A stretch of DNA of 59,175 nt from a virus: positions 1 to 59,175 of the IMG/VR virus record IMGVR_UViG_3300028392_000072. One strand, 5' to 3'. A program made the position numbers and the translations under genes. The notes under the pieces are model-generated. The model was not told where the DNA came from. It made no database searches and saw nothing but the letters and a program-made list of their open reading frames with translations. Shown here one piece after another: positions 45,949 through 59,072 of the stretch (its first letter is position 1; the number at the start of each line of letters is the position of its first letter).

Positions 45949-46145
45949 ATTAAGTTTTTAATTTTATGTAAGATTACTTACTACTTAATATGATATCAGA
46001 AGTATTTTTGTTTTTAACCAGGTATTGTTATTAGCTTTATAAACTCATCAAAATCACATTCCATATAGGCTTTATCAATATCAAATTGATCATCATAATC
46101 AACCATTACAAATCTTACAACCTTTTTAATAATGACACCGAAGTA
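45949..46145. other. Intergenic region after glnS
   Basis: About 200 bases with no confident gene. A 30-codon minus-strand ORF (MVDYDDQFDIDKAYMECDF, near 46017-46110) lies just after glnS and might be a small co-transcribed gene. I see no clear terminator or repeat. Confidence 0.3.
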
Positions 46146-47783
46146 TTAGACTAAAGAAAAACCTTCTTTCAAACTTACCGTTTTATTGAAACTTTTACCA
46201 TCAGTATCTAAAATATAATACCCCTTTCTCATCATTTGAACTGGCTCCTTGACGTTTAAAACGTGTGGTTCAAAGATTGCCTTATCATTAATTATAAGTG
46301 AATCTGTGTTGATGTAATTGATAAAATCATCTTCATTTTTATCCGGTGATTCATCATTGAATAATCTATCATATTCATTTACATTAACTCTAACTCCATG
46401 TTCAGCAGATACCCAGTGAATAGTTCCTTTAATCTTTCTTTCAAAAGTCATACCAGATCTTGTTAAAGGGTCGTAAGTACATCTAATTTCAATAACTTCT
46501 CCACTATCATTCTTGATAACTTCATTCGCTTTAATAACATAAGCACCTTTCAATCTTACTTCACCACCCAACTTTAATCTGTGGAATTTGTTATTAGCTT
46601 CTTCTCTGAAATCTTCCGATTCAATAAATAACTCACCACTAAAAGGAATCATTCTAGTACCAGCACTTTCATCACCAGGATTGTTTTCAACTTCAACCAT
46701 TTCAGTTCCATCATCCCAATTAGTAATAACTAACTTAACGGGATTCATTACACCCATCAATCTATTAGCAACTACATTCAAATCAGTTCTCAAACATTCT
46801 TCTAAAAGCAAGTAAGAAACAACTGACTCTTTTCTAGTAACAGAAATTCTATCACAGAAATCTTTAATAGCATTTGGTGTAAAACCTCTTCTTCTTAAAC
46901 CAGAAATAGTTGGCATTCTTGGATCATTCCAACCATCTACAAATCCTTCTTCAACTAATCTTTTTAATTTTCTCTTTGACATAACTGTATAGTCAATGTT
47001 CAAACGAGCAAACTCAGTTTCTTCTGGAAGTGGATTTTCTAAATCACAATTTTCCAAGACCCACATATATAAAGGTCTATGAACTTCAAATTCTAAAGTA
47101 CATAAAGAATCAGTGATACCTTCTTTATAATCTGAAAGTGGATGAGCAAAGTCATACATTGGATAAATCTTCCAAGTATCACCAGTTCTGTGGTGTGACT
47201 TACTGATAATTCTATAAAGAACCGGATCTCTTAAAATCATATTAGGAGAAGTCATATCAATATTGGCTCTCAAGATTTTAGAACCTTCAGAGAATTCACC
47301 TAATATCATTCTATTAAATAGGTCTAAGTTTTCTTCTATACTTCTAGATTTATAAGGTGAGTCTTTACCAACTGAAGTTGGTGTTCCTTTTAAGTTAGCA
47401 ATTTCTTCAGATGTTGAATCATCAACATAAGCTAATCCTTTCTTAATTAAAGTAACAGCACATTCATAAAGAAAATCAAAATAATCAGAGGTGTATCTGA
47501 TTTCACTTGGAGTATAACCAAGCCATTTTATATCTTCAATCATTGAATCTACAAACTCTTTTCTTTCAGTTGTTGGATTCGTGTCGTCAAATCTTAACAC
47601 ACACGGAGCATTATACTTTTCTGCTAATCCAAAATTTAATATAATGGATTTAGCGTGACCTAAGTGAAGACCACCCACAACTCTACCATCGTTTAGTATA
47701 GCTCCATTTGGTTCTGGTGGAAAACGAAGTTTTAACTTATCAAGATTTCCTTTTTCTAATATTTTTTCTTCTATGAAATTCAT
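46146..47783 (-). CDS. glnS: Glutaminyl-tRNA synthetase, 545 aa
   Basis: Attaches glutamine to tRNA-Gln. LRFPPEPNG and GLHLGHAKSI form the HIGH region (H40-LG-H43) and YTVMSKRKL the KMSKS loop. LRFDDTNPTTE and YDFAHPLSDYKEGITDSLCTLEF are GlnRS-specific blocks, and the C-terminal anticodon-binding beta-barrels are complete. About nine residues (ILNDGRVVG) are inserted between PNG and HLGH, where cellular enzymes have one or two. It is the last gene of an operon: leader peptide, terminator, two UUG tRNAs, glnS. Confidence 0.95.
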   Translation of the reverse strand: MNFIEEKILEKGNLDKLKLRFPPEPNGAILNDGRVVGGLHLGHAKSIILNFGLAEKYNAPCVLRFDDTNPTTERKEFVDSMIEDIKWLGYTPSEIRYTSDYFDFLYECAVTLIKKGLAYVDDSTSEEIANLKGTPTSVGKDSPYKSRSIEENLDLFNRMILGEFSEGSKILRANIDMTSPNMILRDPVLYRIISKSHHRTGDTWKIYPMYDFAHPLSDYKEGITDSLCTLEFEVHRPLYMWVLENCDLENPLPEETEFARLNIDYTVMSKRKLKRLVEEGFVDGWNDPRMPTISGLRRRGFTPNAIKDFCDRISVTRKESVVSYLLLEECLRTDLNVVANRLMGVMNPVKLVITNWDDGTEMVEVENNPGDESAGTRMIPFSGELFIESEDFREEANNKFHRLKLGGEVRLKGAYVIKANEVIKNDSGEVIEIRCTYDPLTRSGMTFERKIKGTIHWVSAEHGVRVNVNEYDRLFNDESPDKNEDDFINYINTDSLIINDKAIFEPHVLNVKEPVQMMRKGYYILDTDGKSFNKTVSLKEGFSLV

Positions 47784-47811
47784 AATGTTTATATTTTTAT
47801 ATGTTGTTTAG

Positions 47812-47883
47812 TTGGAAAAACAGGGATCGAACCTGTATCTTCTGATTCAAAGTCAGAAATAATAACCATTATACTATTTTCCA
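47812..47883 (-). tRNA. tRNA-Gln (UUG)
   Basis: Acceptor TGGAAAA/TTTTCCA with the Gln-typical T1-A72 pair, anticodon arm TCTGA-CTTTGAA-TCAGA giving UUG, and T-arm ACAGG-TTCGATC-CCTGT. A normal type I tRNA of 72 nt. It sits 29 bases before glnS and 27 bases after the type II tRNA, in the same transcript. Confidence 0.9.
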
Positions 47884-47910
47884 ATATTACTACTATCTAG
47901 AGTAGTTTTG

Positions 47911-47991
47911 CTATCCGGGTAGGACTCGAACCTACACGCCTTTCGGCATCCGCTTCAAAGGCGGATGTGGCTGCCATTTCACCACCGGACA
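47911..47991 (-). tRNA. Type II tRNA with UUG anticodon (Gln by anticodon, Leu-like body)
   Basis: Acceptor TGTCCGG/CCGGATA, D-arm GTG-AAATGGCAGC-CAC, anticodon arm TCCGC-CTTTGAA-GCGGA (UUG), a long variable arm GCC-GAAA-GGC, and T-arm GTAGG-TTCGAGT-CCTAC. The body (TGGTGAAATGG...CAC and a long variable arm) is that of tRNA-Leu, but UUG reads Gln codons and the discriminator is G73, not the A73 needed for Leu. T1-A72 and G73 suit GlnRS; a long variable arm with G73 could also suit SerRS. The Gln-rich leader and the adjacent glnS favour glutamine. Confidence 0.8.
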
Positions 47992-48048
47992 ATTTGTTAT
48001 ATTAAATTTCTAAATGTCAAACTCATTCTACCGGAATTTGTATGAAAT

Positions 48049-48083
48049 AAAAAAACCCTGTCCAAAAAGATTGAACAGGGTTT
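48049..48083 (-). terminator. Attenuator terminator of the tRNA-Gln/glnS operon
   Basis: On the minus strand AAACCCTGT...ACAGGGTTT forms a 9-bp stem followed by a run of T. It lies between the leader ORF and the first tRNA. The segment CTGTTC (48073-48078 on plus as GAACAG) spanning arm and loop is complementary to GAACAG in leader codons 14-16 (48117-48122), giving a competing pairing. Confidence 0.88.
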
Positions 48084-48111
48084 GTAAAGTTTACACAATA
48101 CTATTCCATTA

Positions 48112-48162
48112 TCAATCTGTTCGATTAATTTGTTGTTGCTGGAATTGTGTTGTTGTTCTCAT
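48112..48162 (-). CDS. Leader peptide 1, Gln-rich (MRTTTQFQQQQINRTD)
   Basis: A 16-codon ORF in the transcript leader, with five glutamine codons at positions 6 and 8-11 (CAA, CAG, CAA, CAA, CAA). It is followed by a terminator, then two UUG tRNAs and glnS. A ribosome that stalls at the Gln run for lack of Gln-tRNA would leave codons 14-16 free to pair with the terminator and so allow readthrough. The Gln content and the position are seen; the mechanism is inferred from amino-acid operon attenuators. Confidence 0.78.
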   Translation of the reverse strand: MRTTTQFQQQQINRTD

Positions 48163-48196
48163 TTTAATTTCTTTTTTTACAATATTAGTTATATTT

Positions 48197-49024
48197 TTAT
48201 TCATACAAAGATATAAAATTTTTTCCATATTTACCGACCACATAGTCTAAATATATCTTTATGTCTTTCTTGTATATAACTTTTATTTCATATGGGAAAT
48301 ATGAAATTTTAGCATTTGTTAAATCCGATTCAAAGTTCTTAATTTCCACATACTCATCATTAACTATAAAATCTGGATAAAATAAATGTTTTTTATTTTT
48401 ATAAAAATATTCAAATCCTTTTTTATTTCTTTCAATTTTTATATTATGATCAATACAATATATTAAATATGCTAATTCATAACTACTATCCAACCAATAA
48501 CCTTTATACCACCCTGACTTACCTCTACTACTTCCTTTTTTAATACCACCTGATATCTCTAACCAACATTTTTTATGATACTTTTGTTCTCTGTATTTTT
48601 GATTAACTCCACATTCTCCACATTTTAAACAAGTAAATTGTATTATCTTCTTATCTCTTTTAGGCGGGATAAACATATTTCCATTTAAAATTAACGAATT
48701 TCTTATTTTACTTTTTGTTTCTTCAGATAGTGTTCTTTGTCTAGAACATTTATCAGAACAATATTTTCTTAAAATTTGTTTATTTTTATCTCTTTCAAAT
48801 TCAGATATCGTAGATTCAACCTCAAATTTAGTATTACATCTTAAACAATTTCTAATTTCTACAACTCTATCAACTTTATTACAACCTTTAAATAACTTAC
48901 TAAGATTTTCTTTTCTTTTCTCAAAATTTGGATTTTCATCACAACACGCAACATGTGAAGCAAATCCTTGTTGTTTTTCAACGAATATTAATTTTTTACA
49001 CCATTTACATTCTTTTATATACAT
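48197..49024 (-). CDS. PD-(D/E)XK homing endonuclease with zinc fingers, 275 aa
   Basis: Three or four CxxC zinc-binding pairs (CKWCKKL, CLRCNTKF, KYCSDKC, CLKCGECG) are interspersed with a NUMOD3-like segment (LSEETKSKIRNSLI). The nuclease domain at the C-terminus has WLDSSYELAYLIYCIDHNIKIERN, then YPDFIVNDEYVEIKNF, giving PD...ExK catalytic residues. It sits between two tRNA operons, a common site for phage homing nucleases, and its 3' end carries the glnS-operon promoter. Confidence 0.85.
   Translation of the reverse strand: MYIKECKWCKKLIFVEKQQGFASHVACCDENPNFEKRKENLSKLFKGCNKVDRVVEIRNCLRCNTKFEVESTISEFERDKNKQILRKYCSDKCSRQRTLSEETKSKIRNSLILNGNMFIPPKRDKKIIQFTCLKCGECGVNQKYREQKYHKKCWLEISGGIKKGSSRGKSGWYKGYWLDSSYELAYLIYCIDHNIKIERNKKGFEYFYKNKKHLFYPDFIVNDEYVEIKNFESDLTNAKISYFPYEIKVIYKKDIKIYLDYVVGKYGKNFISLYE
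48206..48238 (-). promoter_or_regulatory. Promoter of the tRNA-Gln/glnS operon
   Basis: Minus strand TATCTTTG (48206-48213) fits the -7 box; the -33 region reads GTCGG (48234-48238), weaker than the TTxGG seen at the other tRNA promoters and shifted by one base. It overlaps the 3' end of the endonuclease gene that starts at 49024. Confidence 0.55.
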
Positions 49025-49076
49025 AGATTATATATTAAAAATTAAACGGTCCCTATCAAAAACGAACCCAAACATG

Positions 49077-49152
49077 CGGATCTAATGGGATTCGAACCCA
49101 CCTGATCTTCCGAGTGACAGTCGGACGGACACACCAAGCATCCCCTAGATCC
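49077..49152 (-). tRNA. tRNA-Asp (GUC)
   Basis: Acceptor GGATCTA/TAGATCC, anticodon arm TCCGA-CTGTCAC-TCGGA (GUC), T-arm GTGGG-TTCGAAT-CCCAT, discriminator G73 as expected for Asp. Position 8 is G in place of the near-universal U8, and the variable loop has 7 nt. Last tRNA of the Gln-Pro-Asp operon. Confidence 0.9.
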
Positions 49153-49161
49153 ATATTTTTG

Positions 49162-49235
49162 TCTAAGTGACAGGGTTCGAACCTGCGGCCTGAGAGTCCC
49201 AAACTCCCCGCTCTACCAAACTGAGCTACACCTAG
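49162..49235 (-). tRNA. tRNA-Pro (UGG)
   Basis: Acceptor CTAGGTG/CACTTAG with the C1-G72 pair typical of tRNA-Pro, D-arm GCTC-AGTTTGGTA-GAGC, anticodon arm GGGAG-TTTGGGA-CTCTC (UGG) and T-arm GCAGG-TTCGAAC-CCTGT. Ten bases from tRNA-Asp. Confidence 0.92.
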
Positions 49236-49297
49236 TTTTTGAGAATTCTTTTACTCTATTCCCAAAAGAGTACGTTTCTGTCCAATTATACTTCGTG

Positions 49298-49370
49298 TTG
49301 TCCCACAAGGGTTCGAACCTCGACTCTTCGGTACCAAAAACCGACGTGTTGCCAATTACACCATAAGACA
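49298..49370 (-). tRNA. tRNA-Gln (UUG)
   Basis: Acceptor TGTCTTA/TGGGACA, D-arm GTGT-AATTGGCA-ACAC, anticodon arm TCGGT-TTTTGGT-ACCGA (UUG), T-arm CGAGG-TTCGAAC-CCTTG. The body is close to Bacteroidetes tRNA-Gln, unlike the other two UUG tRNAs at 47812 and 47911. First tRNA after the attenuator of leader 2. Confidence 0.9.
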
Positions 49371-49372
49371 AT

Positions 49373-49407
49373 AAAAAACCCTCATAAGAACTAACTTATG
49401 AGGGTTT
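49373..49407 (-). terminator. Attenuator terminator of the Gln-Pro-Asp tRNA operon
   Basis: A 13-bp perfect stem AAACCCTCATAAG/CTTATGAGGGTTT with a 6-base loop and a T-run on the minus strand, just before tRNA-Gln. The 5' arm and loop (minus-strand CATAAGTTAGT, 49390-49400) are complementary, with one bulge, to ACTAACTATG in the leader ORF (49447-49456). Confidence 0.92.
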
Positions 49408-49429
49408 ACAAATCGTTTAATGTTTTTAA

Positions 49430-49525
49430 TTAACTTATTGTAAAGACATAGTTAGTCACTTCCTTAGAATCCTGATCCTGAGGTTGCGGGTTAACTTGTG
49501 CGATATTTACGTTAATTGTTTTCAT
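49430..49525 (-). CDS. Leader peptide 2 with Gln/Pro/Asp run, 31 aa
   Basis: Starts MKTINVNIA; residues 10-19 read QVNPQPQDQD, so eight of ten residues are Gln, Pro or Asp. These are exactly the three tRNAs downstream (Gln-UUG, Pro-UGG, Asp-GUC). Codons 24-27 (ACT AAC TAT G) can pair with the terminator's 5' arm and loop. If ribosomes stall in the Q/P/D run, this antiterminator would form and the tRNAs would be transcribed. No homologous protein is recognised, and the peptide itself is probably without function. Confidence 0.82.
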   Translation of the reverse strand: MKTINVNIAQVNPQPQDQDSKEVTNYVFTIS

Positions 49526-49579
49526 TTTATTATATAGTAAATTGTTTATGTCTCTTTTAATGTTTATTCTTATTTTATA

Positions 49580-49611
49580 CAAATATAGATAAAAGTTTTA
49601 TATCTGCCTAA
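49580..49611 (-). promoter_or_regulatory. Proximal promoter of the Gln-Pro-Asp tRNA operon
   Basis: Minus strand TTAGG (49607-49611), 19 bases starting CAGATATAAAACTTTTAT, TATATTTG (49580-49587). It is about 55 bases upstream of the leader ORF. The same sequence, nearly base for base, drives the large tRNA operon (58842-58873). Confidence 0.78.
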
Positions 49612-49666
49612 TTTATTTTGTAAAAAAATTGAGACTTGTATCTGAATCGTTTCCCATCCCAATTCA

Positions 49667-49698
49667 CAAAAATAAGGTAGGTTTTTTAATCCACCAAA
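49667..49698 (-). promoter_or_regulatory. Distal promoter of the Gln-Pro-Asp tRNA operon
   Basis: Minus strand TTTGG (49694-49698), 19 bases starting TGGATTAAAAAACC, TATTTTTG (49667-49674). It begins one base after the stop of the gene at 49699 and lies 87 bases from the proximal copy, repeating the tandem layout of the ncRNA locus. Confidence 0.7.
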
Positions 49699-50415
49699 TT
49701 ATTCTGTATCTTTTTTAAAATCATTATATCTTTTAATTTTATCACCACCTTTTAAATTATCAACCTTTGACTTCATTTCGTCATCCATAATCATAGGTAT
49801 TAACCTATTACCGATTGTCTTAGGGTCCTTTAGATATTTTTCAGTAGGTCTCTTATAATCATAACTATCTATATCACTATCTATAAATTTATAATCACCA
49901 GTAGTTGTTTCAAATCCAAATCTATTGAAGAAGGTAACTAATTCTTTTAGTGATTCATCAGAAAAACCAAAATATGTTTCAGGATCATATAAAGAATCTT
50001 TACCATTATAATGATGCACATTTACTTTATTTGGATAATCAATTGTAAACTCATACATCATTGAGTCACCATATGTTAAGTCAATGTTTAATCTTAGTGA
50101 ATTTGAAGGATTAGATTCTGTTCCATCATTATCTTTAACCATAGTAATATCAAATTGTAAGTTGTCTGGTTCACCATCTGCTGTTGGATCATCATCTTTT
50201 TTATCAAGAGTACTCTGAGAGTACATAACCGAAACACAATTCATTAAATTATAAATACCAGGGTATCCATCATCTCCAGGTTCCAAACTTTTCACATCTA
50301 ATGTAAACTCACCATTTTGATTAATAATAGTTAGTTTTTTAGGCAAAAGTTTTACCCATTCAGAAGAGTCAAAAATAGATATTTTATTCTCATTGAACTT
50401 TTTAATATATTTCAT
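49699..50415 (-). CDS. Tagged hypothetical protein, 238 aa, paralogue of 57076 gene
   Basis: Begins MKYIKKFNENKISIFDS, the shared tag. The middle (SLRLNIDLTYGDSMMYEFTIDYPNKVNVHHYNG and DESLKELVTFFNRFGFETTTGDYKFID) matches the 57076 protein closely (ITYGDAMACEFSIEEPNKIKV; LESFIKFLNRFDGMKLKREDFKFLD). So these are diverged duplicates placed beside two different tRNA operons. No known domain. TATATAG just upstream of the ATG is the phage start-site motif. Confidence 0.7.
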   Translation of the reverse strand: MKYIKKFNENKISIFDSSEWVKLLPKKLTIINQNGEFTLDVKSLEPGDDGYPGIYNLMNCVSVMYSQSTLDKKDDDPTADGEPDNLQFDITMVKDNDGTESNPSNSLRLNIDLTYGDSMMYEFTIDYPNKVNVHHYNGKDSLYDPETYFGFSDESLKELVTFFNRFGFETTTGDYKFIDSDIDSYDYKRPTEKYLKDPKTIGNRLIPMIMDDEMKSKVDNLKGGDKIKRYNDFKKDTE

Positions 50416-50440
50416 ATTCTATATATTAAATTTTTATCAT

Positions 50441-50466
50441 AAAAAAACCTACTTTAAAGTGGGTTT
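50441..50466 (-). terminator. Terminator-like hairpin before the tagged gene
   Basis: AAACCTACTT...AAGTGGGTTT, a stem of about 10 bp with one mismatch on the minus strand, followed there by seven Ts. It overlaps the stop codon of the gene at 50465. Confidence 0.7.
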
Positions 50467-50878
50467 ATATTCCTAAATCTTTCAATTTTTTATCTCTCAT
50501 TTTCGAGACATCATGAATAGCATATATAGAATTCTTTGTGATAATTATATTCTCATCAATTATATTGATAACAGTAGTTGTAGACCAAGATCCATTACCA
50601 AGAGTAAATGACTTACCAACTTGTGGATAGTCATCAAACTTACCAACATAAGAGTCACCTTCGCCTATTCTACCAGCGACTCTTGTAGAGAATCTATCTG
50701 AAATAATAGATTTTTCTGTTCTTAGAAAGTTATAATCATTTTTACATTCTTCTTTAAGAATATTAACATAGTAATCATATATTGGACCACAATCATAAAC
50801 AACCATTGCTGTTGACTTATTTCCTTTAATAGGTGGTAGGATTTTACCTATTTTTAATATCTCAATTTCTTTAGTCAT
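50465..50878 (-). CDS. Hypothetical protein, 137 aa
   Basis: Starts MTKEIEILKIGKILPPIKG (ATG 50876-50878); a longer frame would overlap the peptidase gene by 46 bases. SFTLGNGSWSTTTVINII and YVNILKEECKNDYNFLR are its visible features, perhaps a small beta-barrel. Unrecognised. It overlaps the peptidase stop by eight bases, so they are co-translated. Confidence 0.6.
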   Translation of the reverse strand: MTKEIEILKIGKILPPIKGNKSTAMVVYDCGPIYDYYVNILKEECKNDYNFLRTEKSIISDRFSTRVAGRIGEGDSYVGKFDDYPQVGKSFTLGNGSWSTTTVINIIDENIIITKNSIYAIHDVSKMRDKKLKDLGI

Positions 50879-52124
50879 ATAGGTCTTCACAATATCCACT
50901 GATTGAATCATTATCAACAGGTCTATAGGTTGGTTTATTAGTTGGCTTTAATTTTGATTTTGATTCTACTTTAGAAAATACTTCATCACCATAGTCTTTT
51001 AACTCTTCAATTTCTTTATAATCTAAAACTGGTAGATATTCAATTAAATCATTTCTATCACAATCAGATGAGTGGTCAAATTCATAGTAAACTTTTAATT
51101 TGAATCCATCCCATTCAGATCTAATATAGTGTAGTTCAAGTTGAACAAGTACTTTATCAATCATTTCTTGCTCAAGAGCAATTCTTTCTTTACAAAGATC
51201 TACAGAAACAACTCTTTTAGTTAAAGTATTAATCTCAACACTTGAAACATAATTAAACTTAGCATCATGAAACCAAGTTTTTTCAGTTCTATCAACCGGG
51301 GTAGTTGGATTAGTCCAAGTTTTGTAACCATAATCATAGTCATAATCATATTCACTTCCCCATCTTCCACCATAAGAACCATAATTGTATTCAGTTTTAG
51401 AAGGATCTCTATCAACAGGTAAGTTATTCCAATCTACTTTCAAACAAGCTTCAGCTAATTTTTCTAAGTGTTCAATATTTTGAACTTCGGAAAATGTGTG
51501 TTCATTTTGATATCCAACAGAAATATTAGTACACTCTGGGTATAATTTAACAAATTGAATAGAGTCAGTTAAAAGTCCAGTAGTGTCATTTTTATAAGAA
51601 AATGTGTCATTTGCTAAATTTAATTGTTTTGATAATTCATCACCAAATTTATCTGAACAACATCTACTTCCACTTTGATAAGTTATAATTGATGTAGTAC
51701 CTCTACGGTCAAATGAAATTACTTTGTTTATACCTTCTTGTTTTTCTTCTTTGTATTTAGTAGCAACTTTTCTAGAACCAACACAACCAACTTCTTCACC
51801 TAAGAAAAAGTAATAAAGACCTGGTATGTTATTTTCAATCATATGTAACATAATAGTCACACCCGCTTTATCATCTGCTCCAAGAATAGATTTACCGTCT
51901 GTTTTAATATTAACACCTTCAAAAACATGAACAACTTCACTAAGTGCTGATGTTGCTGTATCTAAGTGAGCAGTAAACATAACATCACTTTCACCGATTT
52001 TAATAAACAAGTTACCAAATTCATCTTCTTTAAGATCTGAATTTAATAAAGGAAATATATCCTTTTCAGTACCGTGTGGGTAGGTTCTGCTAGTCAAAGA
52101 CAGAAACATATTCTTAATATTCAT
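50871..52124 (-). CDS. Zinc aminopeptidase (M20/M42/M28-like), 417 aa
   Basis: Metallopeptidase with a di-zinc site: VMFTAHLDTATS (H, D), ILGADDKAGVTIMLHMI (bridging D), FFLGEEVGCVGS (catalytic EE) and VISFDRRGT (D) in the order of peptidase T / M42 enzymes; the last ligand would be the His in YQNEHTFSEVQ. An acidic, Tyr-rich insert (GSEYDYDYDYGYKTW) and a C-terminal extension of about 130 residues are unusual. It is an unexpected enzyme for a phage and may degrade peptides during infection. Confidence 0.85.
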   Translation of the reverse strand: MNIKNMFLSLTSRTYPHGTEKDIFPLLNSDLKEDEFGNLFIKIGESDVMFTAHLDTATSALSEVVHVFEGVNIKTDGKSILGADDKAGVTIMLHMIENNIPGLYYFFLGEEVGCVGSRKVATKYKEEKQEGINKVISFDRRGTTSIITYQSGSRCCSDKFGDELSKQLNLANDTFSYKNDTTGLLTDSIQFVKLYPECTNISVGYQNEHTFSEVQNIEHLEKLAEACLKVDWNNLPVDRDPSKTEYNYGSYGGRWGSEYDYDYDYGYKTWTNPTTPVDRTEKTWFHDAKFNYVSSVEINTLTKRVVSVDLCKERIALEQEMIDKVLVQLELHYIRSEWDGFKLKVYYEFDHSSDCDRNDLIEYLPVLDYKEIEELKDYGDEVFSKVESKSKLKPTNKPTYRPVDNDSISGYCEDLYD

Positions 52125-52175
52125 AGTATAAATTTTTTGTTATACAAATATAGTAATTTTTATAATATAAAACTA

Positions 52176-53240
52176 CTATTTATTTTTATATTTCTTTAAA
52201 TATTCAGATTCCCATATAGATATAATTTTATACCCCATACTTTTTAGATATTCCTCTTTAATTATTGTATTTCTATATAATTCTCCAAATGTTTTACCAA
52301 TAACACTATTAACTATATTAGATTCAAAAATATTAGGGTTTCCGTGCCAGAAGTCACCATTAAACTCATATATAATATTATTAACTTTATCTACACCATC
52401 TACTACATATTTTCCTATACTAACTTGTCTATCTTTTTTTTCTATTCCAATAACATCTAACCAATCATTTTCCATCAAACCATACTTTAATCCACAAATT
52501 TGACACCCTCTTCCGTTTAGATGTTTATTAGGAGTTTGAATAAACTCACCATGTTGTCTACATATTATCCGTACTTTAGTTAGAGCATTTTTGTAATCAA
52601 CTAATGAATAATCATATCTATTATTATGTATAATATTTGACTTATAAGAGAAGTCATCAGTTGATGATTTTAAATTACCAGCACATATTTTACAACCATA
52701 TCCAATTAGGTGATTTCTTGCAACTTGATTAAAAATACCATGCAGATTACAAATAATAGATACCGTGGTTATATTATTAATATATTTAACCAGTGAATAA
52801 TCATATTTATTTCCATGTTTTAGATTAGATTTTTTAATAAAATCCGAAATATTTAATTTAAAACTTTTATCACATTTAGGACAACCCTGTCCTTTTAGGT
52901 GATTATTTGGTGATTGGTTGAATTCACCGTGTTCTTTACATATTATACTTACTTTATTTTTATCATTGACATAATCAACTAATGAATAGTCAAATATACC
53001 ATTATGTTTTAATTTTGACTTCTCTATAAACTCAATAGTATTCGATTTTCTATTAACTCTACAAAAAGGGCATTTTTGACCACTTAAATGATTGTTAGGT
53101 GTTTGATAAAAAACACCATGTTCTTTACATATTATCTTTACTTTTGTTTGGCTATTTACATAATCAACTAATGAATAGTCAAATATACCATTATGTTTTA
53201 ATTTTGACTTCTCTATAAAAGTCCTACTTATTGTCTCCAT
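52176..53240 (-). CDS. Repeat-containing Vsr-like homing endonuclease, 354 aa
   Basis: Four tandem repeats of about 55 residues, each of the form FIEKSKLKHNGIFDYSLVDY followed by a KVxIICxxHGxFxQxPNNHL and CPxC unit, form a zinc-binding DNA-recognition array. The C-terminal part (VVDGVDKVNNIIYEFNGDFWHG and SMGYKIISIWESEYL) is the Vsr/EDxHD-like nuclease. ATG 53238-53240 (METISRTF) is preceded by the TTTAATATATAA start-site motif; a longer frame from a non-ATG codon is rejected. The first and second repeats are near-identical in DNA, which suggests recent expansion. Confidence 0.85.
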   Translation of the reverse strand: METISRTFIEKSKLKHNGIFDYSLVDYVNSQTKVKIICKEHGVFYQTPNNHLSGQKCPFCRVNRKSNTIEFIEKSKLKHNGIFDYSLVDYVNDKNKVSIICKEHGEFNQSPNNHLKGQGCPKCDKSFKLNISDFIKKSNLKHGNKYDYSLVKYINNITTVSIICNLHGIFNQVARNHLIGYGCKICAGNLKSSTDDFSYKSNIIHNNRYDYSLVDYKNALTKVRIICRQHGEFIQTPNKHLNGRGCQICGLKYGLMENDWLDVIGIEKKDRQVSIGKYVVDGVDKVNNIIYEFNGDFWHGNPNIFESNIVNSVIGKTFGELYRNTIIKEEYLKSMGYKIISIWESEYLKKYKNK

Positions 53241-53273
53241 AAATTTATATATTAAAACTGAAAAGCATATTTT

Positions 53274-53280
53274 AATATAT
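53274..53280 (+). promoter_or_regulatory. TATATAC motif before the 745-aa virion gene
   Basis: TTTTAATATATACATTATG: the motif lies five bases before the ATG at 53286. On the other strand a related motif serves the divergent endonuclease gene. Function inferred from recurrence. Confidence 0.4.
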
Positions 53281-53285
53281 ACATT

Positions 53286-55523
53286 ATGCAACAAATAATA
53301 TCAGATACATTAAATGGAACTTTATCTATATCAGATCAATTTAGTATAACAGCTGCTACTTCATCTTCTGAATCAACTCCTATTTTTTATAAATCAGGTG
53401 ATGAATATACAATAAGTTTTGTAGATATAATGGATGTTAATAAACTTACAACATTTTCATATGATACTTTAGGATCAACTGATACAAGATTTTTAACAAC
53501 AACTTATAGATTATCTAGAAATTCAACATCTTGGAGTGATTTTCAAGAACTGAAATCTGATATTGATAATTTTCCACCATTTGATCCAAAAGATCCTTTA
53601 TATGTGGATGTTAAATGGACCAGAGGTGGATCATCAACAATAGGTATTATTAGATTATTAGAATATAAATTAAGTGGATTGCTTGAAGTAAATATTGAAA
53701 CAGGTGATGTGCCTATTAAATTAAAAGTAGGTGAATCAACTATATTAAAAGCTCCTTATATTTATAAAGTATTCAAAGTAGATGATATTGAAATTATATC
53801 ATCATCAGTTCTTACAGATGTTAATATTAAGTATAGATTCTCACAAGATAGTAGTAGAACTTTTTCAGGTTGGGAACCATTTACTAAAGAAAATATCACA
53901 TCATTGAGAATAAATCCTATTAGATTTTTTCAAGTTGAATATTCAATAGAAAATAATTCAACTTCTAATATAACAATTCAAGATGTTAATTTAATTGGAG
54001 ACTTTCAAAATGTAAGTAAAGATTATTTCAAAACCAATTTATATGGTATCAGAGAATGTTGTCAATCTAATGTTTCTGGTTACTATGATGCAAATGGTAC
54101 TTTTATACCAAACACATCATCAACTGGAGTTTCAAATTCAGGTGGGCAATGTGATACAACAAATGCTTTATATGGTCTTACATCAGAAGATAAATCACAA
54201 CTATATAATCCTTACCAACAAAATACAGCTATTAATTTATTAAATAAGTTAAGTACTGACGCTCAACAAATATTTGGTCATAGAGTTATTTACTTTGTTA
54301 CTGATCCAGATAAACAAGGACAAGATCATTCTTTACATGAGTATCAATTATACAATGTTGTTTGTAATGGAGATATTAAAGTTTCAATTGAAGGTAATAA
54401 CTTTCCAGATTCTCAAATAATGATGAATCAATTCGATTTGAATTTATTTGAAACAATGGAAGCACATATTACTAAACAACAATTTAAAGAAATATTTGGA
54501 CCTCAAAGAAGACCAAGTAAAGAAGACTTTTTATTCTTCTGTGATCTGAACAGAATGTATCAAGTAGAACATGCTCAACAATTTAGAAATTTCAATAACT
54601 CTGCAATTTATTATAAATTGATATTGAAAAAATACACTCAGAAAGCAAATGTCAAGGCTGGTACACCAGAAATTAAAAATAAACTTGCTGAACTTACTAA
54701 GAATACAACTATTGAAGAGTTATTTGGTGTTGAAATTAAACAAGATAAAGATGCCGTAGCTAACAAGGAACAATATACAACATTAACAAAGGATCCAATT
54801 AGAATGGACTACTTTGCTCAAATAGATAAAGAACTAATTGAGAATTCAAGTAATATTATTTCTAAGTCAAATTATGATTTAGCAACAATTGATTTAGGAT
54901 CAGTTGCAGTTAGATATAAAAATATGGACACTTATATTAAAAAAGGAGATAATATTGGATATATGGCTTGGTTTAATATACATAACTATGTTGTAGATGA
55001 TGTTTATAACTTATTTAATTTATATGATTCTACAAATAATTTAGGATGGAAATCAAATTTAATTAATGATGAATTAATAGTTAATATAAGTGGATCTACT
55101 TATAGTTATAATATAACTGGATCTAATTTACCAGATACTGTTGCTTTTGATGAAGATACTTGGTATTGTTACTTATTAAATATAGACCAAAGATTAAGAA
55201 CTATAACTCAATATATCTATAAGAGAAATGTTGATGATGAAGATGATGCTCAGAACTTACAAAGTACTTTACTTCAATTAGTTTATGAAAATACTCAAGA
55301 TATGACTCCAGTTGAATTCCAATTAGAAGGAGTATTTGCTGAGATATTTGCTTCTGATATGAAAATGACTAATATCAGATTATTTACAGATATTATTCCT
55401 AAAGAAGAACATAATAAGATGTTAAATCAAGCTATTATTGGAGAAGCATCTAAATACTTAGTTTTTGCGGATAACGCTAATACAAGATTAAGTTTACCAA
55501 ACTTTCCACTTGGAAATGAATAA
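53286..55523 (+). CDS. Putative virion structural protein with lectin-like domain, 745 aa
   Basis: A long beta-rich protein rich in Asn, Ser and Thr. The N-terminal half has repeated beta-sandwich segments; around residues 240-330 a Gly/Asn/Cys-containing loop (IRECCQSNVSGYYDANGTF) precedes a conserved-looking segment IFGHRVIYFVTDPDKQGQDHSLHEYQLYNVV. The C-terminal ~200 residues (NIGYMAWFNIHNYVVDDVYNLFNLYDS...WYCYLLNIDQRLRTITQYIY) resemble a concanavalin-like LamG fold. It is likely a baseplate, neck or fibre protein; the exact part is not clear. Confidence 0.62.
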   Translation: MQQIISDTLNGTLSISDQFSITAATSSSESTPIFYKSGDEYTISFVDIMDVNKLTTFSYDTLGSTDTRFLTTTYRLSRNSTSWSDFQELKSDIDNFPPFDPKDPLYVDVKWTRGGSSTIGIIRLLEYKLSGLLEVNIETGDVPIKLKVGESTILKAPYIYKVFKVDDIEIISSSVLTDVNIKYRFSQDSSRTFSGWEPFTKENITSLRINPIRFFQVEYSIENNSTSNITIQDVNLIGDFQNVSKDYFKTNLYGIRECCQSNVSGYYDANGTFIPNTSSTGVSNSGGQCDTTNALYGLTSEDKSQLYNPYQQNTAINLLNKLSTDAQQIFGHRVIYFVTDPDKQGQDHSLHEYQLYNVVCNGDIKVSIEGNNFPDSQIMMNQFDLNLFETMEAHITKQQFKEIFGPQRRPSKEDFLFFCDLNRMYQVEHAQQFRNFNNSAIYYKLILKKYTQKANVKAGTPEIKNKLAELTKNTTIEELFGVEIKQDKDAVANKEQYTTLTKDPIRMDYFAQIDKELIENSSNIISKSNYDLATIDLGSVAVRYKNMDTYIKKGDNIGYMAWFNIHNYVVDDVYNLFNLYDSTNNLGWKSNLINDELIVNISGSTYSYNITGSNLPDTVAFDEDTWYCYLLNIDQRLRTITQYIYKRNVDDEDDAQNLQSTLLQLVYENTQDMTPVEFQLEGVFAEIFASDMKMTNIRLFTDIIPKEEHNKMLNQAIIGEASKYLVFADNANTRLSLPNFPLGNE

Positions 55524-55530
55524 ATATAAA

Positions 55531-55556
55531 AAAACCTCTGAATATTCAGAGGTTTT
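55531..55556. terminator. Bidirectional terminator
   Basis: AAAACCTCTGAATATTCAGAGGTTTT, a near-perfect palindrome with A/T tracts on both sides, between the convergent virion and gltX genes. Confidence 0.92.
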
Positions 55557-55561
55557 TTATT

Positions 55562-57019
55562 TTATACAGTAACTGTTTTAGTAGAATTAAGAATTCTCAA
55601 TTTCACTTGGTCTTTACCGAGAATTGACATTGTAGTCATTAAATCCGGACCAGCAATTCCACCAACTAAAGCAATTCTCAAACCAGGCATCACTTTACCA
55701 ATCTTAATTCCAAAACCATCACAGATAGAAGAAATAGTTAATTTAATACTATCATTATTACTAAAATCAACAGAATCAATATTATCAACAAAACTCGACA
55801 TAACTTTTGTATAGTTATCATCAATTTTTGAGTAATCGGTGATAACAGGAGTATCAAAAAACAAATCCACAATATGATTCAAATCCGTCTTAAAAGTAGA
55901 TCTATCCTTAGCCAAAGTAATAATCTTATCTAATCTATCATCAGAGTATCTCCCATCTTTTATGTTGATAAAGTCAATTAAATCTTTGTTATCAGTAGCC
56001 TTTAGATAATGAGAGTTAATCCATTTAGCTTTATCAATATCAAAACGAGCACCGGCCTTATGAACTCTATCTAATGAGAATGAATTAATCATATCATCTA
56101 AATTCATAACTTCAATATCCTTACCAGGATTCCAACCAATTAAAGCAAGTGAGTTAATAAAGGCTTTAGGATCATAACCTAAATCTTTCCAACCTGGAAT
56201 ATAAACCCCGCTATCATCAGTATAACCAAGTGGTGCAATAGGAATGCCATATTTAGCGGCCGTTCTTTTCGCTAACTTACCTTTGCCATCAGGATTCATA
56301 ATTAAAGGAAGATGAGAAAAAGTGGGAATATCCCATCCAAATGCTTTATACATAAGAATATGAAAAGGAGTAGAATTTACCCACTCTTGTCCACGAAGAA
56401 CATGAGTAACCTTCATATCATGATCGTCACAAACATTACAAAGATGATAAGAACCAATACCATTGGATTTGATTAAAACTTTATCATCTAAAGTATTTGT
56501 ATTAATAGTAATACTACCTAATATAGCATCATCAAAAGCTATATCAACATCTGGAGTTACAGCAAAACGAACAACATAAGGAACTGAATTAATATCAGTA
56601 TCAGGATTTGTCAAGGAGTTATTCATAGACATACGAGTTGTTGAATCATATTTAAGACCTTTTGATTTTAAAATATCTAAATCATCTTTAGTATCAAAAG
56701 CATAATAAGCCAATCCATTATCTAATAGAAATTTAACCTTATCAGAATAATCTCTTTCTGATTGAATAAAAGAACCAATTGCTGGGTCTGGATTCCAAAA
56801 AGAGTAATCTGGTACAATATCTAACCAATCACAAGTATCTTTAAAATATTGTAAAAATTCTGGAGTATAACGGTCTTGATCCGTGTCCTCGAGCCTCACA
56901 AGAAATTTACCACCGTGTCTTTTAGCAAGAAAGTAGTTATAAAGTAAGGTTCTTAAATTTCCCAAATGGACAAATTTTCCGGTTGGTGAAGGCGCGATTC
57001 TTGTTACAATGTTTTTCAT
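55562..57019 (-). CDS. gltX: Glutamyl-tRNA synthetase, 485 aa
   Basis: Attaches glutamate to tRNA-Glu. TRIAPSPTGKFVHLGNLRTLLYNYF contains the HIGH-type motif (H18-LGN), LVRLEDTDQDRYTP the ATP-pocket block, THVLRGQEWVNSTPFHILMYKAF the class I core, and GKLAKR the KMSKS loop (with A for the first S, as in some GluRS). The C-terminal anticodon-binding domain is present. ATG 57017-57019 is chosen because TATATTTG at 57035-57042 would lie inside the longer TTG frame. It pairs functionally with the two tRNA-Glu genes near 36 kb. Confidence 0.94.
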   Translation of the reverse strand: MKNIVTRIAPSPTGKFVHLGNLRTLLYNYFLAKRHGGKFLVRLEDTDQDRYTPEFLQYFKDTCDWLDIVPDYSFWNPDPAIGSFIQSERDYSDKVKFLLDNGLAYYAFDTKDDLDILKSKGLKYDSTTRMSMNNSLTNPDTDINSVPYVVRFAVTPDVDIAFDDAILGSITINTNTLDDKVLIKSNGIGSYHLCNVCDDHDMKVTHVLRGQEWVNSTPFHILMYKAFGWDIPTFSHLPLIMNPDGKGKLAKRTAAKYGIPIAPLGYTDDSGVYIPGWKDLGYDPKAFINSLALIGWNPGKDIEVMNLDDMINSFSLDRVHKAGARFDIDKAKWINSHYLKATDNKDLIDFINIKDGRYSDDRLDKIITLAKDRSTFKTDLNHIVDLFFDTPVITDYSKIDDNYTKVMSSFVDNIDSVDFSNNDSIKLTISSICDGFGIKIGKVMPGLRIALVGGIAGPDLMTTMSILGKDQVKLRILNSTKTVTV

Positions 57020-57034
57020 TTTATAAATTTTATA

Positions 57035-57042
57035 CAAATATA
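57035..57042 (-). promoter_or_regulatory. -7 box of the gltX promoter
   Basis: Minus strand TATATTTG 15 bases before the gltX ATG, a perfect TAnnTTTG. The leader would be about ten bases long. Confidence 0.5.
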
Positions 57043-57075
57043 AGAAAAGAATTATAGAAAACAAATATATACATT

Positions 57076-57726
57076 ATGAAATATTTAAGAAGATTTAATG
57101 AAGATATTGAAGCAACAATTAAAGCTAATGGTAATATAAAACCTAATATAGATAGTAAGACTAATACTTTAGATACTATCTATGATAAAAGATGGGAAAA
57201 TGAATTATCAGAATTCATTACAATAAATTATCACAATAATCTTTATAAATTTAAGAAAGATAATATAATGTTACATTCTGATATGGTTCAAATAACTTAT
57301 GCTTCCACACCTCTTTATAGTGAAGAGTCTGAAGAAATATGGGGAGCACCTGATACTTTAGAATTTGATATTTATTTTGCTAAAGATGATAAAGATGGTA
57401 ATATAACATTAACTATTGATATTACTTATGGAGATGCTATGGCTTGTGAATTTAGTATTGAAGAACCTAATAAAATAAAAGTTATACAATATACATCACA
57501 TCATTCTAAATTTGATCCAAGTAATACAGTATTTGCCTTAGTAGATGATTCTTTAGAATCATTTATAAAGTTTCTAAATAGATTTGATGGAATGAAACTT
57601 AAAAGAGAAGATTTTAAGTTCTTGGACCAATATGATAATTATAATCCTAAACAGTTTCCAAAACATGCTAAAGATCCTAACATAGTTAATAAGACTAAGT
57701 TAGGATATCCTAATAAAATTAATTAG
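57076..57726 (+). CDS. Tagged hypothetical protein, 216 aa, paralogue of 49699 gene
   Basis: Starts MKYLRRFNEDIEATIK with the shared tag, preceded by TATATAC (57066-57072). The region from ~110 to 190 (TLTIDITYGDAMACEFSIEE; SFIKFLNRFDGMKLKREDFKFLD) matches the 49699 protein. Both lie beside tRNA operons. Unknown function. The gene ends two bases before the last tRNA of the convergent cluster. Confidence 0.7.
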   Translation: MKYLRRFNEDIEATIKANGNIKPNIDSKTNTLDTIYDKRWENELSEFITINYHNNLYKFKKDNIMLHSDMVQITYASTPLYSEESEEIWGAPDTLEFDIYFAKDDKDGNITLTIDITYGDAMACEFSIEEPNKIKVIQYTSHHSKFDPSNTVFALVDDSLESFIKFLNRFDGMKLKREDFKFLDQYDNYNPKQFPKHAKDPNIVNKTKLGYPNKIN

Positions 57727-57798
57727 TAGCGATACCAGGAATCGAACCTGGTCCTCAAGGATATGAGCCGAGTGAGCTTGCCGTTACACCATATCGCC
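57727..57798 (-). tRNA. tRNA-Met (CAU), elongator-type or Ile2
   Basis: Acceptor GGCGATA/TATCGCT, T-arm CCAGG-TTCGATT-CCTGG and a CTCATAT anticodon loop (CAU). The anticodon stem is irregular: GG/CC next to the loop and CTC/GAG outside it, with two unpaired Ts between. It lacks initiator features. A lysidine-modified Ile tRNA with CAU is possible. Last tRNA of the large operon. Confidence 0.78.
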
Positions 57799-57804
57799 AT
57801 TTAG

Positions 57805-57891
57805 TACTTCTGATCGGACTTGAACCGATACGGACCTTCCGGTCCAAGGGATTTTAAGTCCCTCGCGTGCTGCCAATTTCGCCACAGAAGC
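57805..57891 (-). tRNA. tRNA-Leu (UAA)
   Basis: Type II tRNA: acceptor GCTTCTG/CAGAAGT, D-arm GCG...CGC, anticodon arm AGGGA-CTTAAAA-TCCCT (UAA), long variable arm GGACC-GGAA-GGTCC, T-arm ATCGG-TTCAAGT-CCGAT, A73. Well formed. Confidence 0.93.
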
Positions 57892-57898
57892 TTTTTAG

Positions 57899-57970
57899 AG
57901 CTCTCTACCGGTAACGATCCGATTTATTTAGTTTACAAGACTAACGCATCACCATTAATGCTTAGAGAGC
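57899..57970 (-). tRNA. tRNA-Thr (UGU) with atypical T-loop
   Basis: Acceptor GCTCTCT/AGAGAGC, D-arm GCAT-TAATGGTG-ATGC, anticodon arm TTAGT-CTTGTAA-ACTAA (UGU) and T-stem ATCGG/CCGGT. The T-loop is ATCGTTA where TTCRANY is expected, and position 8 is A in place of U. tRNA-Asn of the same cluster shows the same pair of changes, so they may be linked. Confidence 0.85.
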
Positions 57971-57976
57971 TTATTG

Positions 57977-58059
57977 AGCACCTGGAGGGATTCGAACCCC
58001 CGTGACTGAGTTTGCAATCCAGTGCCTTTCGTATTTCTACTCCACTCGACCACAGGTGC
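57977..58059 (-). tRNA. tRNA-Cys (GCA) with hairpin in the D-loop
   Basis: Acceptor GCACCTG/CAGGTGC and T-arm GGGGG-TTCGAAT-CCCTC, with U73 as needed for Cys. The anticodon loop is TTGCAAA (GCA) on a stem CTGGA/CTCAG with an A-C mismatch next to the loop. The D-arm (GTC/GGC) holds about 13 extra nucleotides that form GTA-GAAA-TAC (58031-58040), a mini-hairpin with a GNRA tetraloop. Confidence 0.82.
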
Positions 58060-58066
58060 TTATTAG

Positions 58067-58139
58067 TAGTCCTGACCGGGATTGAACCGATGACCTTCTC
58101 GATGTAAGCGAGTTGCTGCTACCGCTGAGCTACAGGACT
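58067..58139 (-). tRNA. tRNA-Val (UAC)
   Basis: Acceptor AGTCCTG/CAGGACT, anticodon arm ACTCG-CTTACAT-CGAGA (UAC; outermost pair A-A mismatched), T-arm ATCGG-TTCAATC-CCGGT, A73. The D-stem is imperfect (GCT/AGC within GCTCAGCGGTAGCAGC). Confidence 0.88.
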
Positions 58140-58146
58140 ATTTTTG

Positions 58147-58230
58147 TACCGGAGGTGGGACTCGAACCCACACGTCATATAGACACTAGCTTCTAAGGCT
58201 AGCGCGTATTAACCATTTCGCCACTCCGGC
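58147..58230 (-). tRNA. tRNA-Leu (UAG)
   Basis: Type II tRNA: acceptor GCCGGAG/CTCCGGT, D-arm GCG-AAATGGTTAATA-CGC, anticodon arm CTAGC-CTTAGAA-GCTAG (UAG), variable arm GTC-TATAT-GAC, T-arm GTGGG-TTCGAGT-CCCAC, A73. Well formed. Confidence 0.93.
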
Positions 58231-58234
58231 ATTT

Positions 58235-58338
58235 TGTGAATGTGGTAGGGTATTCTCCTACAGATGTGGTGGTTATCTACTTTCCATTATCCACTCTAGT
58301 CATTCGGCTAGTGCTGTTGTAGTTTATCAGCATTCACA
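58235..58338 (-). ncRNA. tRNA-like structure, about 104 nt
   Basis: Sits between tRNA-Leu and tRNA-Arg and has tRNA-like geometry but no canonical tRNA sequence. TGTGAATG/CATTCACA makes an 8-bp acceptor-like stem, CTG/CAG a D-arm, CTAG-CCGAATGA-CTAG an anticodon-like hairpin, GTGG...CCAC a long variable arm and GTAGG-AGAATAC-CCTAC a T-arm whose loop lacks TTCRANY. The anticodon-like loop has no U33. It is either a decaying tRNA gene or a structural RNA that uses tRNA processing. Confidence 0.55.
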
Positions 58339-58348
58339 CATTCTTTTG

Positions 58349-58427
58349 TACCCCAGGTAGGATTCGAACCTACATTTTCAGTTCCGTTACGATTAGTCGC
58401 TTAGAAGGCGACCTCGGCTACTGAGGC
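58349..58427 (-). tRNA. tRNA-Arg (UCU) lacking a normal D-arm
   Basis: Acceptor GCCTCAG/CTGGGGT, anticodon arm GTCGC-CTTCTAA-GCGAC (UCU), T-arm GTAGG-TTCGAAT-CCTAC, A73. Only eight nucleotides (TAGCCGAG) connect acceptor and anticodon stems, too few for a D-arm, while the variable region has 22 nt (containing TCGTAACGG). CCG in the linker is complementary to CGG in the variable region, so this pairing may replace the D-arm. It shares this layout with the neighbouring tRNA-Ile. Confidence 0.78.
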
Positions 58428-58433
58428 ATTTTG

Positions 58434-58512
58434 TCGGTACGATAGGACTTGAACCTACATTTGCAACACCATTACGAATATCCACATTATCAGTGTGGCT
58501 CGGTACGCACCG
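58434..58512 (-). tRNA. tRNA-Ile (GAU) lacking a normal D-arm
   Basis: Acceptor CGGTGCG/CGTACCG, anticodon arm CCACA-CTGATAA-TGTGG (GAU), T-arm GTAGG-TTCAAGT-CCTAT, A73. The linker between acceptor and anticodon stems is seven nt (TACCGAG) and the variable region 23 nt (containing TCGTAATGG). ACC in the linker can pair with GGT in the variable region, a compensatory version of the CCG/CGG pairing of tRNA-Arg. The linker resembles the start of a Ser-type D-arm (GCCGAG). Confidence 0.75.
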
Positions 58513-58527
58513 TTTTATTTCTTTTTG

Positions 58528-58598
58528 AGGACCGGGTGGGTTACGATCCCACTTACTACACGTTAACAGCGTGTTGCTTGCCACTAAGCTTCCAGTCC
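58528..58598 (-). tRNA. tRNA-Asn (GUU) with atypical T-loop
   Basis: Acceptor GGACTGG/CCGGTCC, D-arm GCTT-AGTGGCA-AGC, anticodon arm ACACG-CTGTTAA-CGTGT (GUU), T-stem GTGGG/CCCAC. The T-loop is ATCGTAA and position 8 is A, as in tRNA-Thr of this cluster. First tRNA after the attenuator of leader 3, whose most frequent residue is Asn. Confidence 0.85.
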
Positions 58599-58611
58599 AA
58601 ATTTCAAACAT

Positions 58612-58643
58612 AAAAAAACCCTCAGTTTTTGACTGAGGGTTTT
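58612..58643 (-). terminator. Attenuator terminator of the nine-tRNA operon
   Basis: AAAACCCTCAGT/ACTGAGGGTTTT, a 12-bp stem with loop of 5 and a T-run on the minus strand,14 bases before tRNA-Asn. Its 5' arm (minus-strand CAAAACCCTCA, 58634-58644) is perfectly complementary over 11 bases to TGAGGGTTTTG inside the leader ORF (58698-58708), an evident antiterminator. Confidence 0.93.
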
Positions 58644-58671
58644 GGATATCTTTTATAAAAATTTGTTTACA

Positions 58672-58782
58672 TTAATTGACAAATCCTTTAAATAGATCAA
58701 AACCCTCACAAGGTCTAATACATAACGTATTATTCACCACTGTCAGTGTATTCATGTTCATATTTAAATTAATTGTTGTCAT
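58672..58782 (-). CDS. Leader peptide 3, Asn/Thr-rich, 36 aa
   Basis: A 36-codon ORF in the leader of the large tRNA operon, beginning MTTINLNMNMN. Residues 1-23 consist only of M, T, I, N, L, V, C and R (six Asn and five Thr), exactly the eight amino acids served by the nine downstream tRNAs. Residues 24-36 then use other amino acids (P, E, G, F, D, K) and their codons 25-28 encode the antiterminator segment. A ribosome delayed anywhere in the first 23 codons would expose it; one that translates through would cover it and let the terminator form. Confidence 0.85.
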   Translation of the reverse strand: MTTINLNMNMNTLTVVNNTLCIRPCEGFDLFKGFVN

Positions 58783-58841
58783 TGTGTATATATATATTAA
58801 AAAGGGTTTGTTCCTTTTGGTTATTTTGTTATTATTTTATA

Positions 58842-58873
58842 CAAAAATAGATAAAAGTTTTATATCTGCCTAA
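58842..58873 (-). promoter_or_regulatory. Promoter of the nine-tRNA operon
   Basis: Minus strand TTAGG (58869-58873), the spacer CAGATATAAAACTTTTATC, then TATTTTTG (58842-58849). It is almost identical to the proximal promoter at 49580. About 55 bases separate it from the leader ORF, the same distance as in that operon. Confidence 0.78.
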
Positions 58874-58890
58874 TATTTTTAATTTTTATT

Positions 58891-59049
58891 TTAAATTGTC
58901 ATTGGTCTATTTAATTTACTCCAATCATCAATCTGCCTTTTCTTTTCAATTAGTTCTATTTGTAACTGAAGTTCTTCAATAATCTTATCAAATTCTTCAC
59001 CTTTAATTACCTTATCAGGGTCAAATTTAATATCTTCTATTTTTTTCAT
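58891..59049 (-). CDS. Small hypothetical protein, 52 aa
   Basis: Starts MKKIEDIKFDPDKVIKGEEF and continues as an amphipathic, probably coiled-coil helix (IIEELQLQIELIEKKRQI). A TATATTTG box (59054-59061) precedes the ATG by four bases. It ends 18 bases before the -33 box of the tRNA operon promoter. Function unknown. Confidence 0.6.
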   Translation of the reverse strand: MKKIEDIKFDPDKVIKGEEFDKIIEELQLQIELIEKKRQIDDWSKLNRPMTI

Positions 59050-59072
59050 AATACAAATATAGTAATTTAATT

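Follow-up and report, generated by a model that had tools for sequence, protein, structure and literature searches.

A putative ribosome-mediated attenuator before viral tRNA-Gln, tRNA-Pro and tRNA-Asp genes and a predicted regulon of tRNA and aminoacyl-tRNA synthetase operons in huge phages

Leader-peptide attenuation is a classical mechanism of gene control. The attenuators of biosynthesis operons (trp, his, leu, ilv, thr and pheA; His_leader and Phe_leader in Rfam) have a short leader ORF with cognate control codons and an intrinsic terminator, as do the phage leaders considered here, and also share the alternative pairing after the control codons and the biased codon choice. In E. coli, the pheST attenuator places a leader peptide before phenylalanyl-tRNA synthetase. 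T-box riboswitches bind uncharged tRNA directly through a long conserved RNA.

For huge phages, Al-Shayeb et al. 2020 (PMC7162821) give maxima of 67 tRNAs and 15 synthetases in a genome, and the main text of that paper mentions neither attenuation nor leader peptides. The presence of tRNA genes in phages has been a matter of debate for more than 50 years, with codon compensation set against evasion of tRNA-cleaving defences (PMC10264068). The window analysed here is the whole stretch of 59,175 nucleotides of IMG/VR virus record IMGVR_UViG_3300028392_000072 and, together with LR745206, LR756500-LR756502 and LR756504, it appears to be of the huge-phage kind described in PMC7162821. The window holds three leader/terminator units (A, B and C), all on the minus strand. 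Unit A comprises the following features.

49529-49536, minus strand: AT box TATATAAT just 5' of the leader A ATG, promoter-like (inferred)
49525-49430, minus strand: leader ORF A, 31 codons, MKTINVNIAQVNPQPQDQDSKEVTNYVFTIS and then a stop (ORF list)
49457-49447, minus strand: antiterminator segment (region 2) GACTAACTATG within leader A, forming a duplex with the terminator 5' arm and loop
49407-49376, minus strand: intrinsic terminator A (regions 3 and 4), 13-bp stem, 6-nt loop and T-rich tail
49370-49297, minus strand: tRNA-Gln (TTG) (ARAGORN, Rfam)
49235-49161, minus strand: tRNA-Pro (TGG) (ARAGORN, Rfam)
49152-49076, minus strand: tRNA-Asp (GTC) (ARAGORN, Rfam)

An earlier note on this DNA had described a 31-codon leader with QVNPQPQDQD at residues 10-19, followed by tRNA-Gln, tRNA-Pro and tRNA-Asp in that order, and we confirmed both the sequence and the coordinates. 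These ten residues, encoded by CAA GTT AAC CCG CAA CCT CAG GAT CAG GAT, are the control codons of leader A. The 13-bp terminator said to intervene is present and reads AAACCCTCATAAG-TTAGTT-CTTATGAGGGTTT followed by TTTATT, and the reported pairing of ACTAACTATG with its 5' arm and loop exists: the antiterminator pairs with CATAAGTTAGTT (49400-49389), with one bulge, at -9.1 kcal/mol. The ORF, the terminator and this alternative pairing are thereby shown at the level of sequence. Counted from the first base of the final control codon, the antiterminator begins 14 nt further on; it ends 15 nt short of the stop codon, so that a ribosome at the stop codon would cover it at most partly. Orthologues of leader A precede Asp/Pro(/Gln) tRNAs in LR745206, LR756502 and IMG/VR contigs. 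A 275-aa gene (48197-49024, minus strand) separates the Gln/Pro/Asp tRNAs from Gln leader B; it has a weak endonuclease match (PHROG 15427, E 5.5e-4) and is possibly a homing-type gene in a tRNA operon. Elsewhere in the window (37392-39323, minus strand), an FMN-reductase/flavodoxin-like ORF is split by an intein bearing a LAGLIDADG-type domain (Pfam).

The features of the sister units B and C are as follows.

48162-48112, minus strand: leader ORF B, MRTTTQFQQQQINRTD, with Gln control codons
48083-48053, minus strand: intrinsic terminator B, 13-bp stem
47991-47910, minus strand: tRNA-Gln (TTG), the first under leader B (ARAGORN, Rfam)
47883-47811, minus strand: tRNA-Gln (TTG), the second under leader B (ARAGORN, Rfam)
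47783-46146, minus strand: glutaminyl-tRNA synthetase gene under leader B (Pfam PF00749 1.6e-92, PF03950, PF20974)
58782-58672, minus strand: leader ORF C, MTTINLNMNMNTLTVVNNTLCIRPCEGFDLFKGFVN, an Asn/Leu/Thr/Val/Met leader
58708-58699, minus strand: leader C antiterminator TGAGGGTTTT
58643-58615, minus strand: intrinsic terminator C
58598-57726, minus strand: tRNA array under leader C (Asn, Ile-like, Arg-like, Leu, Val, Thr, Leu, Met)

In unit B, the last 7 nt of the leader, AGATTGA (48118-48112), pair with the 5' arm of terminator B. Within the array of unit C, the Ile(GAT)-like and Arg(TCT)-like tRNAs were seen by Rfam only and their anticodons were read by eye.

Across 57 leaders, the best-pairing segment lies in the late part of the ORF or just after it, and it pairs with the terminator 5' arm of its own unit at a mean of -12.75 kcal/mol, compared with -8.04 kcal/mol for swapped arms. 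No permutation of the arms did as well, neither in LR745206 (0/100,000) nor in further lineages (0/100,000), which meets the prediction of the attenuator reading that the leader sequesters the 5' arm. The segment is found after most control codons. Its start has a median distance of 11 nt (mode 13-14 nt) from the nearest control codon upstream, and this geometry is that of trp- and his-type attenuators, in which a ribosome halted at a control codon would reach to just before the antiterminator. A number of leaders have some of their cognate codons within or beyond the pairing segment. An attenuator needs its antiterminator downstream of control codons, and the leaders satisfy this, though in several of them some cognate codons stand further downstream. 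A short ORF, cognate control codons, an intrinsic terminator and a mutually exclusive antiterminator, the defining parts of an attenuator, are all present, while the transcript start has not been mapped. Prediction of both alternative folds had been proposed as a check in the earlier note: the alternative pairing was found, and static folding favours the terminator over the antiterminator, so the switch must be kinetic. In ribosome-free folds of some leaders (for example AsnRS, ValRS and LeuRS), the control-codon region pairs with the antiterminator, and it is possible that this represents a 1:2 protector, although only single folds are available.

Codon bias in attenuator leaders has been discussed before (PMC1183508). 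Control codons of the phage leaders favour rare synonyms (GTG 0.71 vs 0.06 genome-wide, CCG 0.50 vs 0.07, GCG 0.70 vs 0.07; the counts include orthologues), and the rare GC-rich synonyms enriched in the control codons of this AT-rich genome are GTG, CCG, GCG, GGC, GGG and CGC. An AT box of the AATATATA type stands before 37 of the 57 leaders, compared with 514 of 3031 long ORFs; such a box near the ATG points to a promoter and a 5' UTR of very small length, although this is inferred.

Loci of relatives were taken from IMG/VR and a phage collection, and several contigs of 108-642 kb were covered in large part or by near-complete tilings. In several huge-phage lineages, nearly every tRNA gene cluster is preceded by a leader ORF and a terminator, with the cognate residues in the peptide, and most of the leaders combine codons for two to seven amino acids. 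Within the window's own lineage (LR745206, LR756502 and IMG/VR contigs), a HKNFSKSHKWFS leader precedes His/Phe/Trp/Lys tRNAs and an SSSRSSS leader precedes Arg/Ser tRNAs. Where Glu/Tyr and Ile/Gly tRNAs form separate operons, the leaders are YESYYEE and ISIAVIGNGAGAI, respectively, and a merged Glu/Tyr/Gly/Ile/Ala operon has the leader IYIGYIAEGGYEAG; judged by these sequences, operon rearrangement is accompanied by leader change. Further lineages were retrieved only after the hypothesis had been formed, and there the tRNAs are grouped differently and the leader residues change accordingly. On a 482-kb contig, the leaders are TTGTTTTTKTGKGK before Met/Thr/Lys/Gly/Asn tRNAs, ADCADE before Asp/Cys/Glu/Ala, LSLSLSLSLSLS before Leu/Ser, NNNNQQQYQQNNY before Asn/Gln/Tyr, PQFQFVVPF before Pro/Phe/Val, HIHKHQIWH before Trp/His and RIIRIRRR before Ile/Arg. 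Trp/His/Phe/Lys/Ser tRNAs follow SKHSKHFSSSSKWF in LR756501, His/Glu/Val/Trp tRNAs follow VHIIHIWEHLLEEV in LR756500, and Glu/Ala/Ile/Val/Gly tRNAs follow IAIVEIAVIGGAEEG in LR756504, while another further lineage has LYYLYLYLY before Tyr/Leu and PRPERPTEVTTIVVEETA before Glu/Arg/Pro/Thr/Ala/Val tRNAs. The pN/pS of leader ORFs is 0.49-0.79, below 1 in nine families, which argues for mild coding constraint. We also observed CUA-anticodon (amber-reading) tRNAs (ARAGORN 'Pyl', anticodon CTA) at loci L124, L178, L078, L232 and L233; TAG recoding or suppression is possible in several of these huge phages.

As the attenuator reading predicts, cognate leaders also precede synthetase genes, namely those of the Gln, Asn, Asp, Ile, Leu, Val and PheS-like enzymes. 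The leader residues are IIII for IleRS, LLL or LLLLLL for LeuRS, VVV for ValRS, NNNNHN for AsnRS, DD for AspRS and FNFFF for the PheS-like gene. Synthetase identities were assigned by NCBIfam; as the phage enzymes are short or divergent, several of them score below the full-length cut-off of their family. On a distant contig, the GlnRS gene is still behind a Gln leader at a locus without tRNA-Gln. A HisRS-like operon (L043 5154-7909 in LR745206; L105 7230-9931 in LR756502) has a leader, MRALHTYKITIDLG or MKTLHTYKNVIDWM, with a single His codon, and a terminator; it also encodes RNA ligases, with two PF09414 proteins in LR745206. The H, Y, N and D residues of this leader recall queuosine-type tRNAs.

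We are highly confident that the element is a ribosome-mediated transcription attenuator and a member of a viral tRNA/synthetase regulon, in which stalling and readthrough are inferred. RNA polymerase would start just 5' of the leader ORF, itself an inferred start, with a ribosome trailing it. With ample charging of Gln-, Pro- and Asp-tRNA, the ribosome would pass the QVNPQPQDQD codons and cover the antiterminator at 49457-49447, whereupon the 13-bp hairpin at 49407-49376 would form and transcription would end ahead of the tRNAs. If one charged tRNA is scarce, the ribosome would stall at that codon, the antiterminator left exposed ahead of it would pair with the 5' arm and loop of the terminator (49400-49389), and transcription would then enter tRNA-Gln, tRNA-Pro and tRNA-Asp. 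In such a regulon, every tRNA operon and several synthetase genes would have their own leader with their own amino-acid codons, and the virus would replenish the charged tRNA classes that run short. The leaders resemble built-in sensors, each turning on its tRNA set only under a shortage of the matching charged tRNA; no transcript, footprint or reporter data bear on these steps. There are exceptions to the rule. Asp/Pro leaders have Gln codons even without a tRNA-Gln directly behind, and the Gln operon lies just downstream of Asp/Pro units in several genomes. One operon of genome G003 includes tRNA-Glu behind a leader without Glu, and leaders are mostly missing before single Met, Arg, Cys and CUA tRNAs.

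It could be argued that a small gene of the ordinary kind, with a terminator of its own, happens to stand before the tRNAs, and that the residue match reflects chance or low-complexity bias. The example in the window would by itself leave room for this, as leader A has 8 Q, P or D residues in 30 where 3.9 are expected (binomial P = 0.035), and its own pairing is equalled or bettered by 16% of terminator arms from other families. The earlier note, which held that the match of three residues made chance unlikely, thus overestimated what this single case can carry. Small ORFs are also numerous in these genomes, and strong T-tailed hairpins are common elsewhere (for instance at L118 13964-13933), in many cases without a tRNA or synthetase downstream; the presence of a terminator alone is therefore no evidence, and hence a comparison set of 1062 other terminators was used. 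In the huge-phage contigs sampled, a leader ORF defined by a fixed rule stands at 65 of 67 terminators before tRNAs, compared with 224 (21%) of the comparison set (Fisher P ~1e-38). Each of 15 leaders taken from five further lineages contains all isotypes of its own operon (63% in other leaders), and none of 200,000 permutations matched residues to operons as well. The cognate sets of this test came automatically from ARAGORN, and the leaders themselves were picked from ORFs; the test was therefore repeated by fixed rule without picking, and all 66 rule-based ORFs gave z = 16.8 and 0/20,000 permutations. We give less weight to the earlier test (z 8.1, 0/200,000 in LR745206), for which the 57 leaders and their cognate sets were curated by hand, the reason for which the automated test was added. 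Since the genomes are related and pooled counts are inflated, the per-genome tests are the conservative figures (41/200,000 for LR745206 with automatic sets and 41/200,000 for the 482-kb contig). Leader residues are thus observed to follow operon content across lineages, in support of the attenuator reading. The same match recurs before the Ile, Leu, Val, Asn, Asp and Gln synthetases, and the leaders pair better with their own terminator arm than with swapped arms. Leader A alone is weak evidence that does not exclude chance, and it is the comparison of sequences that does so; with a chance match ruled out by the permutation tests and the rule-based census, we regard the ordinary-gene explanation as very improbable.

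Translation of the leader could also gate the terminator in response to general translation speed or inhibition, rather than to the charging of a specific tRNA. As inferred from the folds, the same RNA switch would answer any slowdown of the ribosome on the leader, but a general sensor needs no operon-matched codons, and the matching persists across regrouped operons, which leaves this explanation only a slight chance. The hairpins might instead serve RNA processing or mark tRNA-operon boundaries, with the leader peptide acting as a codon decoy or a functional micro-protein. tRNA precursors do require processing, and some leader tails are conserved, such as TLC.IRP.EG in Asn-type leaders. However, the terminators have T tails, the conserved tails coincide with the antiterminator segment, and leaders precede synthetase genes with no tRNA to process; we consider this explanation next to negligible.

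If the attenuator reading is accepted, the cause of tRNA depletion during infection is still a matter of inference, with demand, starvation and host tRNA-cleaving defence as candidates. We tentatively propose, as a possibility that we do not favour over others, that the regulon is an isotype-resolved damage sensor: host tRNA-cleaving defences would deplete particular tRNAs, ribosomes would stall at the cognate leader, and the virus would induce just those tRNAs and synthetases that replace what was lost. This proposal would also cover the HisRS-like gene and then the RNA ligases behind leader MRALHTYKITIDLG, and the two RNA ligases near that gene fit such a reading without showing it.

With respect to distribution, the earlier note underestimated the scope of the attenuator, which by sequence comparison is a putative regulon in many huge phages. 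No such leaders were found at distant phage GlnRS genes (L015-L025), at G007/L013 or in a 40-kb stretch of Lak phage B1, and the system is therefore not universal among phages with tRNAs or GlnRS. An IMG/VR scan for IleRS relatives yielded nothing further, and LeuRS, IleRS and AsnRS searches of the phage collection found no close cultured relatives, matching mostly contigs labelled Listeria, Staphylococcus or Enterococcus phage with bacterial-looking DNA. Records so labelled (H39-H107) carry several bacterial-type aminoacyl-tRNA synthetases and are probably bacterial contamination.

A leader that reads the charging state for each operon makes the question of phage tRNAs directly testable, as the inducer of each operon would reveal what the virus compensates for. 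In addition, natural leaders with codons for up to seven amino acids would be useful as ready-made tRNA-charging sensors. A literature search, which did not extend to bioRxiv as a collection or to most subscription journals, returned no earlier report, and within that literature neither leader-peptide attenuation of tRNA genes nor a viral regulon of this kind appears to have been described before. As far as the literature searched shows, what is new is the use of attenuation by viruses and on tRNA genes, with leaders that join up to seven amino acids, as well as a single regulon over most tRNA operons and several synthetases of a genome.

None of the Rfam leader families matched at its cut-off. 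Besides tRNA, the best sub-threshold match to 49484-49370 was His_leader (RF00514), full length, at 31.0 bits (E 0.093) compared with a cut-off of 49 bits, and the T-box covariance model had no Rfam match at E <= 1 in window positions 46000-59175; identity with a T-box or a known Rfam leader was rejected for want of a qualifying match. T-box riboswitches resemble the phage leaders in that they sense the charging of specific tRNAs and control synthetases by transcription termination. Unlike the attenuators of biosynthesis operons, the phage leaders are viral, would control tRNA genes and synthetases, and mostly have codons for two to seven amino acids. The pheST attenuator shares with them the control of a synthetase by a leader peptide, whereas the phage leaders cover seven synthetase types together with tRNA operons, and do so in viruses.
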